A DNA stretch of 64,000 nt, taken from Rhodobacterales bacterium 32-67-9. Lineage in GTDB: Bacteria; Pseudomonadota; Alphaproteobacteria; Rhodobacterales; Rhodobacteraceae. The position numbers and the translations under genes are program-made. This document shows, in pieces, positions 46,079 through 58,260 of this stretch (positions are counted from its first letter, which is position 1; every line of letters begins with the position of its first letter). The stretch spans positions 70,610-134,609 of the forward strand of contig NCEA01000007.1 in assembly GCA_002280515.1 (NCBI GenBank), read 5' to 3'. Under the pieces are notes generated by a model. That model saw only the letters and a list, made by a program, of their open reading frames with translations. It was not told the DNA's origin and ran no database searches.

Positions 46079-46219
46079 TCAGCCTGCCGCCGGTGCCTGC
46101 CACTCGATCCAGAGTCCGTGAAAATCGACGCGGCCGAGGGCGATGCGTTTCCCGCCAGGCCGGAGGTCGAGCCACATGGCCGCCCCCGGTTCGTCGCTGT
46201 GGGGCGTGGTCCGGATCAC
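46079..46219 (-). CDS. 46-aa small protein coupled to pth
   Basis: GTG at 46219 overlaps the pth stop as GTGA and opens a frame of 46 residues: [20 protein letters not shown], then [20 protein letters not shown]. The composition (alternating hydrophobic and charged residues, two Trp in the last strand) looks like a genuine small beta-rich protein rather than antisense noise. I know of no family for it. Translational coupling is the main support. Confidence 0.5.
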
Positions 46220-46893
46220 GAGAACCGGTCGAGCAGGCGCTGAAACGCCGATTTCGGGGGTTCCGGTTCCGTCGGCTCTTCGGGCGCGCTTTTCGGGGCT
46301 TGCGTGGCCGTCGCCGACGATCGTGGCGGTGCGGTGCGGAGTGCCACGGCGTTCATGAACCGCGCCGCGTCGCCTTCGGCCAGCGCGGCCGCGCCGTCCG
46401 ATACGCCGCGCAGCAGATCGTCGAGCCAGTCCTGGTCCGCCTTCGCGAAGTCGGACAGGACGTATGCCGCGACCCGGTCCTTGTGGCCCGGGTGGCCGAT
46501 GCCGATGCGCACCCGCCGGTAGGCTTCGCCGATATGCTGGTGGAGCGAGCGCAGCCCGTTGTGCCCGGCATGGCCGCCCGCCTCCTTGACCCGGCATTTG
46601 CCGGGGGCGAGGTCAAGTTCGTCGTGAAAGACCGTCACCTCGGAAGGGTCGAGCTTGTAGAACCGCATCGCCTCACCGACCGATTGGCCGGAAAGGTTCA
46701 TGAAGGTCATCGGCTTCAGAAGCACCACCCGCTCGGACCCGAGCCGGCCTTCGCTGACCGCGCCCTGGAACTTCGCCCGCCACGGCGGAAAACCGTGATC
46801 CGCGGCGATCCGGTCGACGGCCATGAAGCCGACATTATGCCGGTTCATCGCATATTTCGCCCCGGGATTGCCGAGGCCGACGAAGAGTTTCAA
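46216..46893 (-). CDS. pth: Peptidyl-tRNA hydrolase
   Basis: A 225-aa enzyme recycling peptidyl-tRNA. Motifs: [24 protein letters not shown] (catalytic His in NRHN), [29 protein letters not shown] and [11 protein letters not shown]. The C-terminal 35 residues are Pro/Glu-rich, an extension common in Rhodobacteraceae. Normally rplY lies directly upstream; here a transposon separates them. Confidence 0.96.
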
Positions 46894-47025
46894 GACGGCT
46901 CTCCCGCGTTGGCGCCGGTTGGGCGGGGTCTTGCGCGCCCGCCACTACGCTTGTCGTCCCAGTTGTAGTCATGCGGTTTCGGCGTTGCAACCGGACCCCG
47001 CGCCCGGGGTCGTGCCGCCCGCCCA

Positions 47026-47056
47026 AAGAAAAAGGCGATATTATATTTGACAAACC
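47026..47056. repeat. Left end of the IS1595-type transposon: target duplication plus 23-bp inverted repeat
   Basis: Bases 47026-47033 read AAGAAAAA, the 8-bp target duplication. Bases 47034-47056 are the terminal inverted repeat, starting GGCGATATTATATTTGACA. It is a perfect 23/23 match to the reverse complement of 49711-49733. Confidence 0.95.
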
Positions 47057-47097
47057 CAACTAGGCAGGCTATCTATCGGACATAGGGAGTTTCCGCC

Positions 47098-48045
47098 ATG
47101 TCCGTCCTCAGCAAAGCCTACATGTATGATGAAGCCGCTGCGTTCGTGCACGTCGAGGCGATGCTCTGGCCGCAAGGTCCGATCTGCCCGCACTGCGGCA
47201 ATAGCGAGCGCATCTATGTGCTTACCGGCGTCCGCTCCAAGGCCAGCCAGAAGCACCCGGACGGCATCGAGCGCCACGGCCTCAAGAAGTGCGGCGTCTG
47301 CCGCAAACAGTTCACCGTGCGCATCGGCACGATCTTCGAGGAAAGCCACGTCGCCCTCCATCTGTGGCTGCAAGCGATCCATCTGATGTGTTCCTCCAAG
47401 AAGGGCATCAGCAGCAATCAGCTTCACCGCACCCTGGGCGTGACGCTCAAGACGGCATGGTTCATGTCTCACCGCATCCGCGAGGCGATGCGCGACGACA
47501 CGCTCGGCACCTTCGGCAACGGCGGCGGTGTGGTCGAGATTGACGAGACGTTCATCGGTCGCGAACCGGGCAAGGAAGTGAAGCGCGGCGTCGGTCACAA
47601 GATGAAAGTTCTGACCCTAGTTGACCGCACGACCGGCAAGGCCAAGTCCGTTGTCGTGGATGATCTCAGGATCAAGACGCTCCTGCCGATCCTCAAGGAT
47701 AACATCGCCGCAGAGGCCACCGTCTATACCGACGAGGCGATGCAGTACGACAACCTCGGCAAGCACTTCGCGCTGCACGACAAGGTCAACCACGGCATCG
47801 AGGAATACGCGCGCGGCGACGTGTCCACCAACACGGTCGAAGGCTACTTCTCCATATTCAAGCGCGGCATGAAGGGCGTGTACCAGCACTGCGGCAAGAA
47901 ACACCTGCATCGCTATGCCGCTGAATTTGCGTTCCGCTACAGCAATCGTGTCGCGAACGGGATAGACGACACGGCCCGCGCAAACATCACTCTTCACGGG
48001 ATCGTAGGGAAGAGAGTGCTTTACCGGGACTCGTTCGGCGCGTAG
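47098..48045 (+). CDS. IS1595-family (ISXO2-like) transposase
   Basis: 315 aa. An N-terminal zinc ribbon has Cys30-x2-Cys33 (CPHCGN) and Cys65-x2-Cys68 (CGVCRKQF). The ISXO2-like DDE catalytic domain shows Asp149 in EIDETFIGR, Asp212 in YTDEAMQY and Glu248 in TNTVEGYFSIFKRG. The frame is intact with no truncation, so the element may be active. It starts 42 bases after the left inverted repeat. Confidence 0.93.
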   Translation: MSVLSKAYMYDEAAAFVHVEAMLWPQGPICPHCGNSERIYVLTGVRSKASQKHPDGIERHGLKKCGVCRKQFTVRIGTIFEESHVALHLWLQAIHLMCSSKKGISSNQLHRTLGVTLKTAWFMSHRIREAMRDDTLGTFGNGGGVVEIDETFIGREPGKEVKRGVGHKMKVLTLVDRTTGKAKSVVVDDLRIKTLLPILKDNIAAEATVYTDEAMQYDNLGKHFALHDKVNHGIEEYARGDVSTNTVEGYFSIFKRGMKGVYQHCGKKHLHRYAAEFAFRYSNRVANGIDDTARANITLHGIVGKRVLYRDSFGA

Positions 48046-48071
48046 AATCCGCGCCAAAGGCGCGGAACGAA

Positions 48072-48815
48072 ATGGCAACACCAGAACAAATCCCAACTGA
48101 CCTGACCGTGGACGTGGGGGACGACATGTCCCCAGAAGAATTCATGTCCGCAGTTCGGCACTTCATGGGCTATGTGACCGAGATTACTGCGGCGCAGAGC
48201 GGTGACGGGGCAGATGTTGGCTGGACCGTTCGAGTGCGCGAAGGCAGTTATCTGATTGGTGTAGAGCCTGGCAGGGATGCACCCAGCTCTCGACTTTCCA
48301 TGATATACCACAAGGCCGAACATGCGGCCGTCGCGCTTGCAGCGGGTGACATTAGCAGTGCAGAACTGTCCGACCGGGCGATAGGGCACCTCAAGGCGCT
48401 TTCCGATCTATCCAGCAAGAGCCAAAACGGAAAAGGCATAAGGCTTTGGGTTCAAAAGCGGCCTATCGCAATTAGTCCTGGCATCGCAAAGACGGTCCGC
48501 GAGGACTGGGAAGCTGACTACAACGACTATGGCTCCCTTGAAGGACGATTGGAGGCGATCCGAGACGCTTCCGGGTCCGTGAAGATTGCGGTCAAAGACT
48601 TCTTGTTCCCTAGATCAATTGTTTGCAGCGTTCCGGAACGCCTATTGGAGACGGCGCTTGGCAGTTTCAGGAAGCGTGTCGAGATCGAAGGGACCATTCA
48701 CTACAGGCGCGATGGAACGCCCGTTAGCATCGAAGCGCACTCCATAGAGATACTGCCGGAAGATGACGAACTGCCTAGCGCGGATGATGTCCGTGGAATA
48801 ATGGCGGTAGTATGA
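48072..48815 (+). CDS. Transposon passenger: unknown 247-aa protein
   Basis: ATG 48072 follows GGAACGAA. Soluble and acidic, no signal or membrane segment. N-terminal EEFMSAVRHFMGYVTEI looks helical; the middle has a strand-helix pattern, and the C-terminus (HYRRDGTPVSIEAHSIEILP) looks like beta strands. Its ATGA overlap with the PIN nuclease gene means the two are co-translated. By position it could be the partner or antitoxin of the PIN protein, but it is much larger than a VapB-type antitoxin and shows no DNA-binding motif. Family not recognised. Confidence 0.8.
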   Translation: MATPEQIPTDLTVDVGDDMSPEEFMSAVRHFMGYVTEITAAQSGDGADVGWTVRVREGSYLIGVEPGRDAPSSRLSMIYHKAEHAAVALAAGDISSAELSDRAIGHLKALSDLSSKSQNGKGIRLWVQKRPIAISPGIAKTVREDWEADYNDYGSLEGRLEAIRDASGSVKIAVKDFLFPRSIVCSVPERLLETALGSFRKRVEIEGTIHYRRDGTPVSIEAHSIEILPEDDELPSADDVRGIMAVV

Positions 48816-49276
48816 GCGTCGAGAAGATTTACTGGGACAGTGATTGCTTTCTGGGGCACTTGCAGGCCGAGGTTGGAAAGGTTGCTAAGTGCGCGGGCGT
48901 CTTGCAGCGTGCAGATCGTGGAGATGTGCTGATCGTTACATCGGCGCTTACCTTGGCTGAGGTTCTGTGGATGCGGAACGCACCGCGTTTGACGGAAGAC
49001 AAGGCGTTACTGGTGCGGCGCTTTTTCAGACGCTCAACCATCCGGATCTATAATGTCTCAAGGAAAATATCCGAAGCCGCACAGGACTTGGTTTGGAAAC
49101 AAGGGATTAAGCCGAAGGACGCCATTCATGTCGCTACAGCGCTCCACTTGGGAGCGGATGCGCTCGAAACATTTGATTTGGACCTCATCAACAAGAGCGG
49201 CACCGTAGGGACACCCCTTCTACTAATTCGGGAACCACAGGCAGCCGCTCAGGGGAGTTTGTTCGATGGCAAATAA
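48812..49276 (+). CDS. Transposon passenger: PIN-domain nuclease
   Basis: 154 aa with a full set of PIN acidic residues: YWDSDCF (Asp9/Asp11), TLAEVLW (Glu50), KPKDAIHVATAL (Asp103) and ETFDLDL (Asp122/124). PIN proteins are Mg-dependent RNases, often VapC-type toxins. ATG 48812 overlaps the upstream stop (ATGA). The C-terminus continues about 25 residues past the fold. Toxin function is inferred, and the unusual partner protein makes a classical VapBC pair unlikely. Confidence 0.85.
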   Translation: MSVEKIYWDSDCFLGHLQAEVGKVAKCAGVLQRADRGDVLIVTSALTLAEVLWMRNAPRLTEDKALLVRRFFRRSTIRIYNVSRKISEAAQDLVWKQGIKPKDAIHVATALHLGADALETFDLDLINKSGTVGTPLLLIREPQAAAQGSLFDGK

Positions 49277-49412
49277 AACTCAACCGGACCGCTTCCGCGA
49301 AGCCGCCCGCGCCCTAGAGTGCGATGACGACGAAGCGCATTTCGACGCCAGGCTGAAGAAGGTCGCCAAGGCTCAGAAGCCGAAGGACGAGAAGCCCGAT
49401 GACAAGGAGTGA
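49266..49412 (+). CDS. Transposon passenger: 48-aa charged protein
   Basis: ATG 49266 lies inside the end of the PIN gene (11-base overlap) and follows AGGGGAGT at good spacing. The product begins MANKTQPDRFREAARALECD, then has an acidic stretch (DDDEAHFDARLKK) and a Lys/Pro/Asp-rich tail. It has no Trp or Tyr and only one Cys. This type of small charged ORF is typical cargo beside transposases in alphaproteobacteria. Function unknown. Confidence 0.6.
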   Translation: MANKTQPDRFREAARALECDDDEAHFDARLKKVAKAQKPKDEKPDDKE

Positions 49413-49704
49413 CGATGTTCCTGAGCGCGATCTGATTTCGCGCCGACTTCGGGAACTCACCTCGGAATCACTTCGGTTGTCCGAGCGCATGAAGAAACTC
49501 GCGCAGGAGGACTACGGCCTTGTGTCTGGCGTTACTCGCGTTCGAAAGGGTGACATGGTGGGGACATTCGCTTGGGTCCTGAACTACGAAACACCCGGAC
49601 CGCCCTCAATAAGAGTGAATTTGGACGCCGATCGAGAGGGCGGTCGCCAGCGAGGCATGAACTTCTATGACGAGTGGGAAGAGATACCGCCTAGCCAAGA
49701 CTGA
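49399..49704 (+). CDS. Transposon passenger: unknown 101-aa protein
   Basis: ATG 49399 overlaps the 48-aa ORF by 14 bases and is preceded by its GAG/AAG-rich codons. N-terminal half is a charged helix (ISRRLRELTSESLRLSERMKKLAQEDYG), C-terminal half looks like beta strands (GDMVGTFAWVLNYETPGPPSIRVNL). The stop lies seven bases before the right inverted repeat. No family recognised. Confidence 0.65.
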   Translation: MTRSDDVPERDLISRRLRELTSESLRLSERMKKLAQEDYGLVSGVTRVRKGDMVGTFAWVLNYETPGPPSIRVNLDADREGGRQRGMNFYDEWEEIPPSQD

Positions 49705-49710
49705 AGCGGT

Positions 49711-49741
49711 GGTTTGTCAAATATAATATCGCCAAGAAAAA
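49711..49741. repeat. Right end of the IS1595-type transposon: 23-bp inverted repeat plus target duplication
   Basis: 49711-49733 is the perfect reverse complement of 47034-47056; 49734-49741 (AAGAAAAA) repeats the left-hand target duplication. The pairing stops at the inner edge (49710 T against 47057 C). Confidence 0.95.
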
Positions 49742-49759
49742 CGGGGCCCGAAGGCCCCG
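49734..49759 (-). terminator. rplY terminator whose T-tract is the transposon target
   Basis: On the minus strand: CGGGGCC (49759-49753), UUCG loop, GGCCCCG (49748-49742), then TTTTTCTT (49741-49734). A perfect 7-bp stem and T-run 28 bases after the rplY stop. The T-run is exactly the duplicated 8-bp target, so this copy keeps the terminator intact. Confidence 0.9.
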
Positions 49760-49786
49760 CATTCCCTATCCGCGACGGGACGAGGA

Positions 49787-50410
49787 TTACTCCTCGGCCC
49801 CGTCCTCGCTTTCGCCCTCGTCGCCATCGGCCGAACGCAGGCCCGACGGGGCCGCGAGGTTGGCGATGACGAAGTTCCGCTTGATCGTCGGCGTCGCGCC
49901 CTTCGGCAGGTCGATATCGCCGATATGGATGACGTCGCCGATCTCGCGCCCAGACAGGTCGACGGTGATGTGATCGGGAATGTCGCCCGCGGTCACTTCC
50001 AGCTCGACTTCCGGACGCACGATCACGAGCGTGCCGCCCTTCTTCAAGCCCGGCGCCTTGTCGTGGTTCTCGAAGGTGACGTGGATGAAGAGGTTGATCC
50101 GCGAGGTCCGCTTCAGCCGCATCAGGTCGAGATGGGTCGGAAGATCCTTCACGATGTCTCGCTGGACACCGCGGCAGATCACGCGCACATCCTCTTGCCC
50201 TTCGACCTTGAGGTTGAAGAGCGTCGACAGGAAGCGGCCCGCCTTCAGCTTTTTCAGAAGCGCGTAGTATTTGACGTTGATGGCAACGGGGTCTTGCCCT
50301 CCGCCATAAACGATGCCGGGTACGTAGCCCTCACGACGAGCTTGACGAGCGGCCCCCTTGCCTGTCCCCGTCCGTACCTCGGCGACAAGATCAGGGATCT
50401 CACCAGCCAT
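49787..50410 (-). CDS. rplY: 50S ribosomal protein L25 (Ctc/TL5 type)
   Basis: A 207-aa 5S-rRNA-binding protein with the longer two-domain Ctc/TL5 layout: [27 protein letters not shown], a beta-rich middle ([23 protein letters not shown]) and the C-terminal TL5 domain, ending in an acidic tail [15 protein letters not shown] 50410 ([13 protein letters not shown]) gives the family N-terminus; the frame extends upstream as noise. Its usual neighbour pth is now behind a transposon. Confidence 0.95.
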
Positions 50411-55684: not shown

Positions 55685-55785
55685 GGTGTTGTGGGCGGCC
55701 CCCGCGCCGCTTACATAAACACGAGTTTTCCTAGCGCCGCCGACCGGGAAACGGTTCGGCGGCGCTGTCCATGAAAGAGACTGGT

Positions 55786-57147
55786 ATGGCATCTGCTGCA
55801 GAGCAAATGGCGGCGAACCTGAGCTGGGGGGCCCTCGGCAAGGCCACCGATCTTCGCCAACGCATCTTCTTCACCCTCGGTCTGCTGATCGTCTACCGGC
55901 TCGGCACCTATATCCCGGTGCCGGGGATCGACGCCGAGGCGCTCAGGAAGTTCATGGAGAGCGCCACGCAGGGCATCGGCGGCATGCTCCAGATGTTCAC
56001 CGGCGGCGCGCTTGGCCGGATGGGGATCTTCGCCCTCGGCATCATGCCCTATATCTCCGCCTCGATCATCGTCCAGCTTCTGACGGCGATGGTGCCCGCG
56101 CTCGACCAGCTGAAGAAGGAAGGCGAACAGGGGCGCAAGAAAATCAACCAGTATACGCGCTACGGCACGGTGCTGCTGGCCACTTTCCAGGCCTACGGCC
56201 TTGCCCGCAGCCTCGAGGCGGGCGATCTGGCGCATGATCCCGGCCTCTTCTTCCAGGCGGCGACTGTGATCACCCTTGTCGGCGGCACGATGTTCCTGAT
56301 GTGGATTGGCGAGCAGATCACCGCGCGCGGCATCGGCAACGGCACCTCGCTGATCATCTTCGTCGGCATCATTGCGAACATCCCGTCGGCGCTGGCGCAG
56401 TTCCTCGAACAGGGCCGGATCGGCGCAATTTCTGCCCCGGTGATCATCGGCGTCATGGTCATGATCATCGCTGTGATCGCCTTCGTCGTCTTCATGGAAA
56501 GGGCGCTGCGGAAGATCCACATCCAGTATCCGCGGCGCCAGGTCGGCATGAAGGTCTATGACGGCTCGTCCTCGCACCTGCCAATCAAGGTCAACCCGGC
56601 CGGCGTCATCCCGGCGATCTTCGCCTCGTCGCTTCTGCTGCTGCCGACGACGATCTCGACCTTCTCCGGTTCCCAGACCGGGCCGGTCATGTCGACGATC
56701 CTCGCCTATTTCGGCCCCGGCCAGCCACTCTACCTCCTGTTCTTCACGGCGATGATCGTCTTTTTCGCCTATTTCTACACCGCCAACGTTGCGTTCAAAT
56801 CCGACGACGTGGCGGACAACTTGAAGAACCAGGGCGGTTTCATCCCCGGCATCCGGCCCGGCGCGAAGACAGTCGATTACCTCGATTACGTTGTGGCGCG
56901 GGTTCTGGTGGTGGGCTCGGCCTATCTGGCCGCCGTGAGCCTCCTTCCGGAAATCCTGCGTTCGCAGCTGTCGATCCCGTTCTACTTCGGCGGCACCTCG
57001 GTCCTGATCGTCGTCAGCGTGACGATGGACACGATCAACCAGATCCAGTCGCATCTCTTGGCGCATCAGTACGAAGGGCTTATTGAAAAGTCCCAGTTGC
57101 GCGGGAAAAAGCGGAGCGGGGCGAGGAAGGCACCCGCCCGCCGGTAA
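55786..57147 (+). CDS. secY: Protein translocase subunit SecY
   Basis: 453 aa with ten membrane segments. Motifs: [26 protein letters not shown], the plug region [55 protein letters not shown] and [17 protein letters not shown] 55786 ([14 protein letters not shown]) fits the family; another in-frame ATG lies at 55771. A short basic cytosolic tail precedes adk by 11 bases. Confidence 0.97.
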
Positions 57148-57158
57148 GGGGACAGTCC

Positions 57159-57713
57159 ATGACCAACATCATTCTCCTCGGGCCTCCGGGCGCGGGCAAG
57201 GGAACCCAGGCTCTGGACCGTGGCGGCCTCGTCACCGACGAGATCGTCATCGGGCTGATCGAGGAGAAACTGAAGGGCGAAACCGCCGGCGGGGTCATCT
57301 TCGACGGCTTTCCCCGGACGCTCGGTCAGGCCGACGCGCTCGGTGCGCTCCTGAAGCGGTCAGGTAACCGGCTTGACGCGGTAATCGAGATGCAGGTCGA
57401 CGACGAGGCGCTCGTCGACCGGATTTCGGGCCGCTACACCTGCGGCAAATGCGGCGAGGTCTATCACGACAGGACCAAGCCGACGAAGATCGACGGCGTC
57501 TGCGACGAATGCGGCGCGACCGACCTCCGGCGCCGCGCCGACGACAATGCCGAAAGCCTCAAGACCCGGCTGATGGAGTATTACAAGAAGACCTCGCCGC
57601 TGATTGGCTACTATTATCACGCAGGCGATCTTTTCAGCGTCGACGGGCTGGCGGAAATCGACCAGGTGGCGAAAGCCATCGCCAATGTGCTGGATCAGGC
57701 CAAGTCGTCTTGA
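57159..57713 (+). CDS. adk: Adenylate kinase with an internal in-frame deletion of the AMP-binding core
   Basis: 184 aa instead of about 217. The P-loop [11 protein letters not shown] (residues 8-18) runs directly into [20 protein letters not shown]. In every adk I know, about 35 residues lie between them, including the STGDMLR stretch whose Thr and Arg contact AMP (E. coli numbering about 18-52). The rest is intact: FDGFPRT, the zinc LID ([14 protein letters not shown]...CDECGATD), RRADDN and [15 protein letters not shown]. The junction is near 57212/57213. As written, the enzyme should not bind AMP. A sequence or assembly deletion, a second adk elsewhere, or a real change are all possible. 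Confidence 0.9.
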
Positions 57714-57891
57714 CGCGCCGGTCGAAACCCACTAGGTCACAGCGTCTCGATTGAGAATCGTCTTGATTTGCTGAGGTTTTGCCGCAGCCGAATCAATCCG
57801 GAAGAAGCCGGCCCGGAGGCCTCGTGCCCTCGGGCCAGTGTTGTGAAAAAAGGTTCCGGCATTACGGAACCGCAACGAAAGGAAGATACGC

Positions 57892-58260
57892 GTGGCACGT
57901 ATTGCTGGCGTCAACATCCCGACGGGGAAACGCGTCCCCATCGCCCTCACCTATATCCACGGCATCGGCAACGACATCGCCAGGAAAATCTGCGAAGCGG
58001 TCAACGTCGACATGGCGCGCCGCGTCAACGAACTCAGCGATGCCGAAGTTCTGGCGATCCGCGAGCATATCGACGCGAACTACACCGTCGAAGGTGACCT
58101 GCGTCGCGAAGTTCAGATGAACATCAAGCGTCTGATGGACCTCGGCTGCTATCGCGGCCTGCGTCATCGCCGCAACCTGCCGGTCCGCGGTCAGCGGACC
58201 CACACCAACGCTCGTACCCGCAAAGGCCCCGCAAAGGCCATTGCCGGCAAGAAGAAATAA
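57892..58260 (+). CDS. rpsM: 30S ribosomal protein S13
   Basis: 122 aa: [37 protein letters not shown], then the tail [27 protein letters not shown], all typical of S13. It starts at GTG 57892 with AAAGGAAG upstream. The 178-base gap after adk is larger than elsewhere in the operon and may contain a promoter. rpsK follows after 14 bases. Confidence 0.97.

Follow-up and report, generated by a model that had tools for sequence, protein, structure and literature searches.

The adenylate kinase gene (adk) that lies in its usual place between secY and rpsM in the window, the 64,000-nucleotide stretch of DNA analysed here, encodes a protein of just 184 amino acids which lacks an internal, in-frame segment of 35 codons, while a second and complete adk is present on another contig of the same genome next to an acetyl-CoA synthetase gene (acs). 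The secY-rpsM adk is probably dead or mis-assembled. We lean towards a recent, real loss of function of a redundant gene copy, tolerated thanks to the acs-linked paralogue. The features on which this account is based are collected in Table 1.

Table 1. Coordinates of the shortened adk, its retained motifs and its neighbours in the window
Feature	Position	Strand	Remarks
secY	55771..57147	+	Upstream of adk, intact; TIGR00967 421.5 bits; no large gap against relatives
Canonical adk	57159..57713	+	Encodes 184 aa; shortened by in-frame 105-bp deletion
P-loop motif	57180..57209	+	Kept in the 184-aa Adk
Deletion junction	57213..57214	+	35 codons absent between these bases; ungapped fit to L035
LID region with four Cys (residues 95, 98, 115, 118)	57441..57512	+	Kept; Pfam PF05191 46.1 bits
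adk-rpsM spacer	57714..57891	+	Well conserved between this stretch and seven congeners; untouched by the deletion
rpsM	57892..58260	+	Downstream of adk, intact; TIGR03631 181 bits

The nearest relative found, locus L035 (WOZM01000200.1), the protein of which is the same as that of the congener G019, has an Adk of 219 aa, and alignment of the short protein to it shows a single gap of 35 residues and no other indel, with 91% identity over the shared residues. The original prediction that about 35 internal codons are missing in frame, and with them the STGDMLR segment after the P-loop, proved accurate: exactly 35 codons (105 bp) are absent, the lost stretch being residues 19 to 53 of the L035 protein, STGD included. 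Of the lengths it gave, the 184 aa of the short form stands and the full length of about 217 aa becomes 219 in close relatives. The best ungapped fit, in which 103 of 120 bases match L035, places the deletion after base 55 of adk and makes the junction codon CTG a hybrid, with the C from the left side and the TG from the right, at a position where the 108 other best-scoring Adk rows (see below) all have Met. Neither microhomology nor a direct repeat is found at this best breakpoint, as judged from the sequence of the relative.

Outside the gap the gene looks ordinary. Frame, start and the purine-rich stretch upstream are all kept, and so are the P-loop columns, the DGFPRT motif with the following Q (D49, G50, F51, P52, R53, T54 and Q57), the four LID cysteines and RRADD...R, all invariant in a 33-row alignment; the AMP-binding segment with STGDML is absent. 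The short protein keeps 78 of the 93 columns conserved at 98% or more in canonical rows, all 15 misses fall in the gap or at the junction codon, and this comparison shows no decay elsewhere in the gene. The cut-offs of TIGR01351 (NCBIfam; 180 bits, cut-off 168) and PF00406 (113.1, cut-off 26.8) are reached and that of NF001380 (NCBIfam; 195 bits, cut-off 251) is not; in the three models the best profile stretches begin at positions 51, 48 and 53, past the gap.

That the loss covers the AMP-binding core, as originally proposed, holds true; its extent is larger still. Among the 35 lost positions are 14 with more than 97% conservation in the 108 other Adk rows; they include STGDML, the motif with the AMP-contacting Thr and Arg. 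In the full-length model residues 19 to 53 comprise seven of the 12 residues of the P-loop helix (14-25), a strand (28-31), a helix (32-40) and most of a further helix (45-55), so that the protein has lost strand beta-2, more than half of the P-loop helix and the greater part of the AMP-domain helices. The AF2 model of the 184-aa protein has a mean pLDDT of 77.7, falls below 50 at residues 13-25 and shows no helix after the P-loop, whereas the full-length control has a mean of 87.1 and no residue below 50; the two models were built from 33 and 32 sequences, respectively, and are only suggestive. When the short model was searched against the PDB, adenylate kinases filled the best 50 rows throughout, as the sequence predicts, and this result is not informative about activity. 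From the loss of strand beta-2, the AMP-domain helices and the end of the P-loop helix, with the conserved residues they carry, we infer that the 184-aa protein would be an inactive enzyme.

The short form appears to be private to the source genome. Adk is full length in all 21 congeners examined (loci L006-L032), and a shorter form is thus not the normal one in this genus, the outcome that the original prediction had set against itself. All nine congeneric regions compared contain the missing segment, with 35 gap positions in eight (G019 included) and 36 in one. The 108 other best-scoring Adk rows are all 213-225 aa long; together with the 184-aa row they represent 99 distinct proteins, duplicates being present, and the count leaves out L092, which was missed by the pattern, and L001 to L004, which comprise copies of the window, the acs-linked paralogue and another gene that matched weakly. 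A 39-aa probe spanning the junction matched one of 394 family genomes at E <= 1e-11, namely the source genome, and none of the 393 others, in a sample which held only one other congener and with a probe that very different deletions would escape. The junction is known from this one genome, no second genome of the species having been seen.

A second adk elsewhere in the genome, one of the outcomes originally envisaged, was found by genome search on contig C22. The PF00406 match is full length (G000:C22, 34770-35324, minus strand; E 1.9e-50, model positions 1-148 of 151) and falls in an ORF of 227 aa flanked by acs (TIGR02188, 762.7 bits, cut-off 724.95) and by a sodium/solute symporter gene of the VC_2705 family (548.7 bits, cut-off 320.75); assignment of the latter as actP was rejected, since the ActP models score well below their cut-offs. 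The encoded protein carries the conserved adenylate kinase motifs, keeps 69 of the 93 conserved columns, is 43% identical to the 184-aa protein and reaches both TIGR01351 (235.6 bits, cut-off 168) and, only just, NF001380 (252.9 bits, cut-off 251). The C22 segment is colinear with contig C17 of G019 (87% identical over 8.2 kb) and therefore belongs to the source lineage, so that contamination was rejected as the origin of this adk. A second adk match at 43-48% identity occurs in 18 of the 21 congeners, and the three without one (G004, G007 and G017) are 77, 89 and 91% complete; linkage of these second matches to acs was checked by colinearity in two congeners, G012 and G019, the contig of the latter beginning inside acs. 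Across the family, adk genes of the acs-linked type (L001 1411-2094 (-)) look common, many hits at 60-82% identity being among the matches listed. The acetyl-CoA synthetase reaction produces AMP, as stated in an excerpt of PMC7746861, and linkage of adk to acs makes sense for this reason.

Six family genomes were picked, among the matches listed, as possible cases in which the paralogue stands alone. Five were rejected as precedents, their adk adjoining secY and rpsM (L140, L141, L143, L144 and L145). In the sixth, G073 (97% complete), the single PF00406 match adjoins acs and the symporter gene, its product reaches NF001380 (279.3 bits), and no adk match is found between secY and rpsM in a spacer of about 200 bp that lies inside a 44-kb contig (L151, G073:C45:34000-42000). 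Since an acs-linked Adk is the only one detected in G073, this enzyme seems sufficient by itself, although about 3% of the G073 genome is missing, and G073 is a partial precedent for loss of the secY-rpsM adk. The original argument that adenylate kinase is essential, and that the short gene must hence be an error, be backed by a second adk or be a new kind of enzyme, need not bind the secY-rpsM copy, because 18 of 21 congeners have a second adk match and G073 does without the secY-rpsM gene.

Between the short adk and that of G019 the dN/dS ratio over the 184 shared codons is 0.129, inside the range of 0.095-0.244 given by the 15 pairs among six congeners, and the raised ratio that a pseudogene under relaxed selection would show in the remainder of adk is not seen. 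When the amino-acid changes were polarised, eight fell to the short adk (one of them the junction codon), five to G019 and four were not polarisable. With an ordinary dN/dS, a loss would have to be very recent or the deletion an assembly error; as far as codon substitutions tell, adk would have been under normal selection until very recently or, if the contig is wrong, would still be so in the cells.

When the ORFs at 25-64 kb of the window were aligned with G019, G010 and G018, adk alone had a gap of this kind against all three. The comparison used only the longest alignment for each ORF and genome, which would hide a gap that splits an alignment, and it does not list weak matches; 46.9-49.8 kb gave no listed match. 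Besides adk, the largest gap against all three is a deletion of 6-8 aa in a minus-strand ORF at 46216-46893. Gaps of 9-22 aa and insertions of 9 and 16 were each seen against a single relative, several of them in antisense shadow frames. Between 46893 and 49787 no ORF has a listed match to the G019, G010 and G018 stretches compared; G+C dips to 0.603 at 48-52 kb, and 46893-49787 is possibly lineage-specific DNA. On the other side of adk, the spacer before rpsM holds a conserved block, TAGGTCAC..CGTCTC..GAGAATCGTCTTGATTTG, which is perhaps an rpsM promoter, and a leader resembling Alpha_RBS at 57847-57924 stays below threshold (28 bits, gathering 38).

The most serious competitor to a real loss, which we hold to be a substantial if lesser possibility, is an assembly, chimera or consensus error, in which 105 bases were dropped in contig building or polishing and the cells carry a normal 219-aa adk. 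The source genome is a draft of 60 contigs, 93.64% complete and 2.02% contaminated; the short form occurs in one of 394 family genomes and in none of 21 congeners; and the deletion falls in a gene that is normally essential. A normal dN/dS and the lack of decay outside the gap are what a gene intact in the cells would show, and they count against a real loss, the dN/dS fitting an assembly error equally well. Set against such an error are the absence of any other comparable gap in the 25-64 kb coding alignments, the exactly in-frame length (expected by chance in one case in three) and a search with protein and DNA in which, outside the window, the missing piece was answered on no other contig except inside the acs-linked paralogue. 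The breakpoint is likewise free of direct repeats and microhomology, and simple repeat collapse does not therefore explain the deletion. Repeat-mediated deletion was rejected too: an imperfect 16-bp direct repeat in the gene of the relative (81% alike, spacing 93 bp) would account for a loss of 93 bp where 105 are missing, and it does not coincide with the junction of best fit; a two-step origin from repeat deletion followed by further codon loss was considered and is not needed. A mixed population, in which the deletion is confined to some of the cells and the assembler settled on their version, fits the sequence results, and the repeat-free junction suggests that some true molecules may exist; nothing sets it apart from a fixed deletion, and we give it very little weight.

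The unprecedented compact enzyme that the original prediction allowed for found no support, and a working adenylate kinase that needs no AMP domain is highly improbable. In its favour are the retained frame, start, upstream purine-rich stretch, P-loop and LID cysteines, together with the rudimentary adenylate-kinase-like activity described for P-loop polypeptides of about 50 residues in an excerpt of PMC10119929. This is opposed by the missing P-loop helix end, strand beta-2 and most AMP-domain helices, by a model in which residues 13-25 stay under pLDDT 50 when no residue of the control does, by the lack of any faster change that would suggest adaptation and by the lack of the short form in every other genome probed. 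It would be just as surprising if the 184-aa protein were a compact phosphotransferase made of P-loop and LID with no AMP domain, able to bind ATP and either weakly active or directed at a different phosphate acceptor, with the acs-linked enzyme doing the adenylate kinase duty.

According to the favoured reading, loss of a redundant copy, the 105-bp deletion would be real, recent and present in the cells, and would have inactivated the secY-rpsM adenylate kinase by leaving a presumably inactive short protein. The intact paralogue beside acs and the symporter gene would supply AMP + ATP <-> 2 ADP and would be expressed enough to compensate; as a second complete adk is present, the loss need not kill the cell. 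Because the deletion is in frame, translation would reach the normal stop and the ribosomal operon would be undisturbed. If real, the deletion is a knock-out made by nature and observed at an early stage, in a gene commonly regarded as essential, and it suggests that the acs-linked paralogue can carry the adenylate balance in these bacteria, with which G073 agrees. If it is an assembly error, it is a warning that a lone internal deletion in a draft genome should not be taken for biology.

The titles and abstract openings listed in searches of the open-licence literature included no adenylate kinase without an AMP domain, and no acs-adk operon or acs-linked adk in Rhodobacteraceae; in the main-text portion of PMC5513736 'adk' occurs 0 times. 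The P-loop prototype polypeptides (PMC10119929, in excerpt) resemble the 184-aa protein, read as an enzyme, in joining a P-loop without an AMP domain to adenylate-kinase-like chemistry, and differ in being ancestrally inferred and of about 50 residues, where the 184-aa Adk is a modern fold minus a piece. With the long-LID Adk of Rhodobacteraceae encoded at the secY-adk-rpsM locus (TIGR01351 / PF00406 + PF05191) the short protein shares locus, start, P-loop, four-Cys LID and C-terminal half, and departs from it in the 35 missing codons with their 14 highly conserved positions. The C22 paralogue is of the same family (TIGR01351, NF001380) and differs in being full length, 43% identical and located elsewhere in the genome. 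What is described here is either an artefact or an ordinary event in which one copy of a redundant pair was lost, and lineages with an acs-linked copy may be able to do without the secY-rpsM adk. The closest parallel to such a loss is G073, in which the acs-linked copy is likewise kept and the secY-rpsM copy absent or not functional, with the difference that in G073 the gene is absent and not internally deleted.
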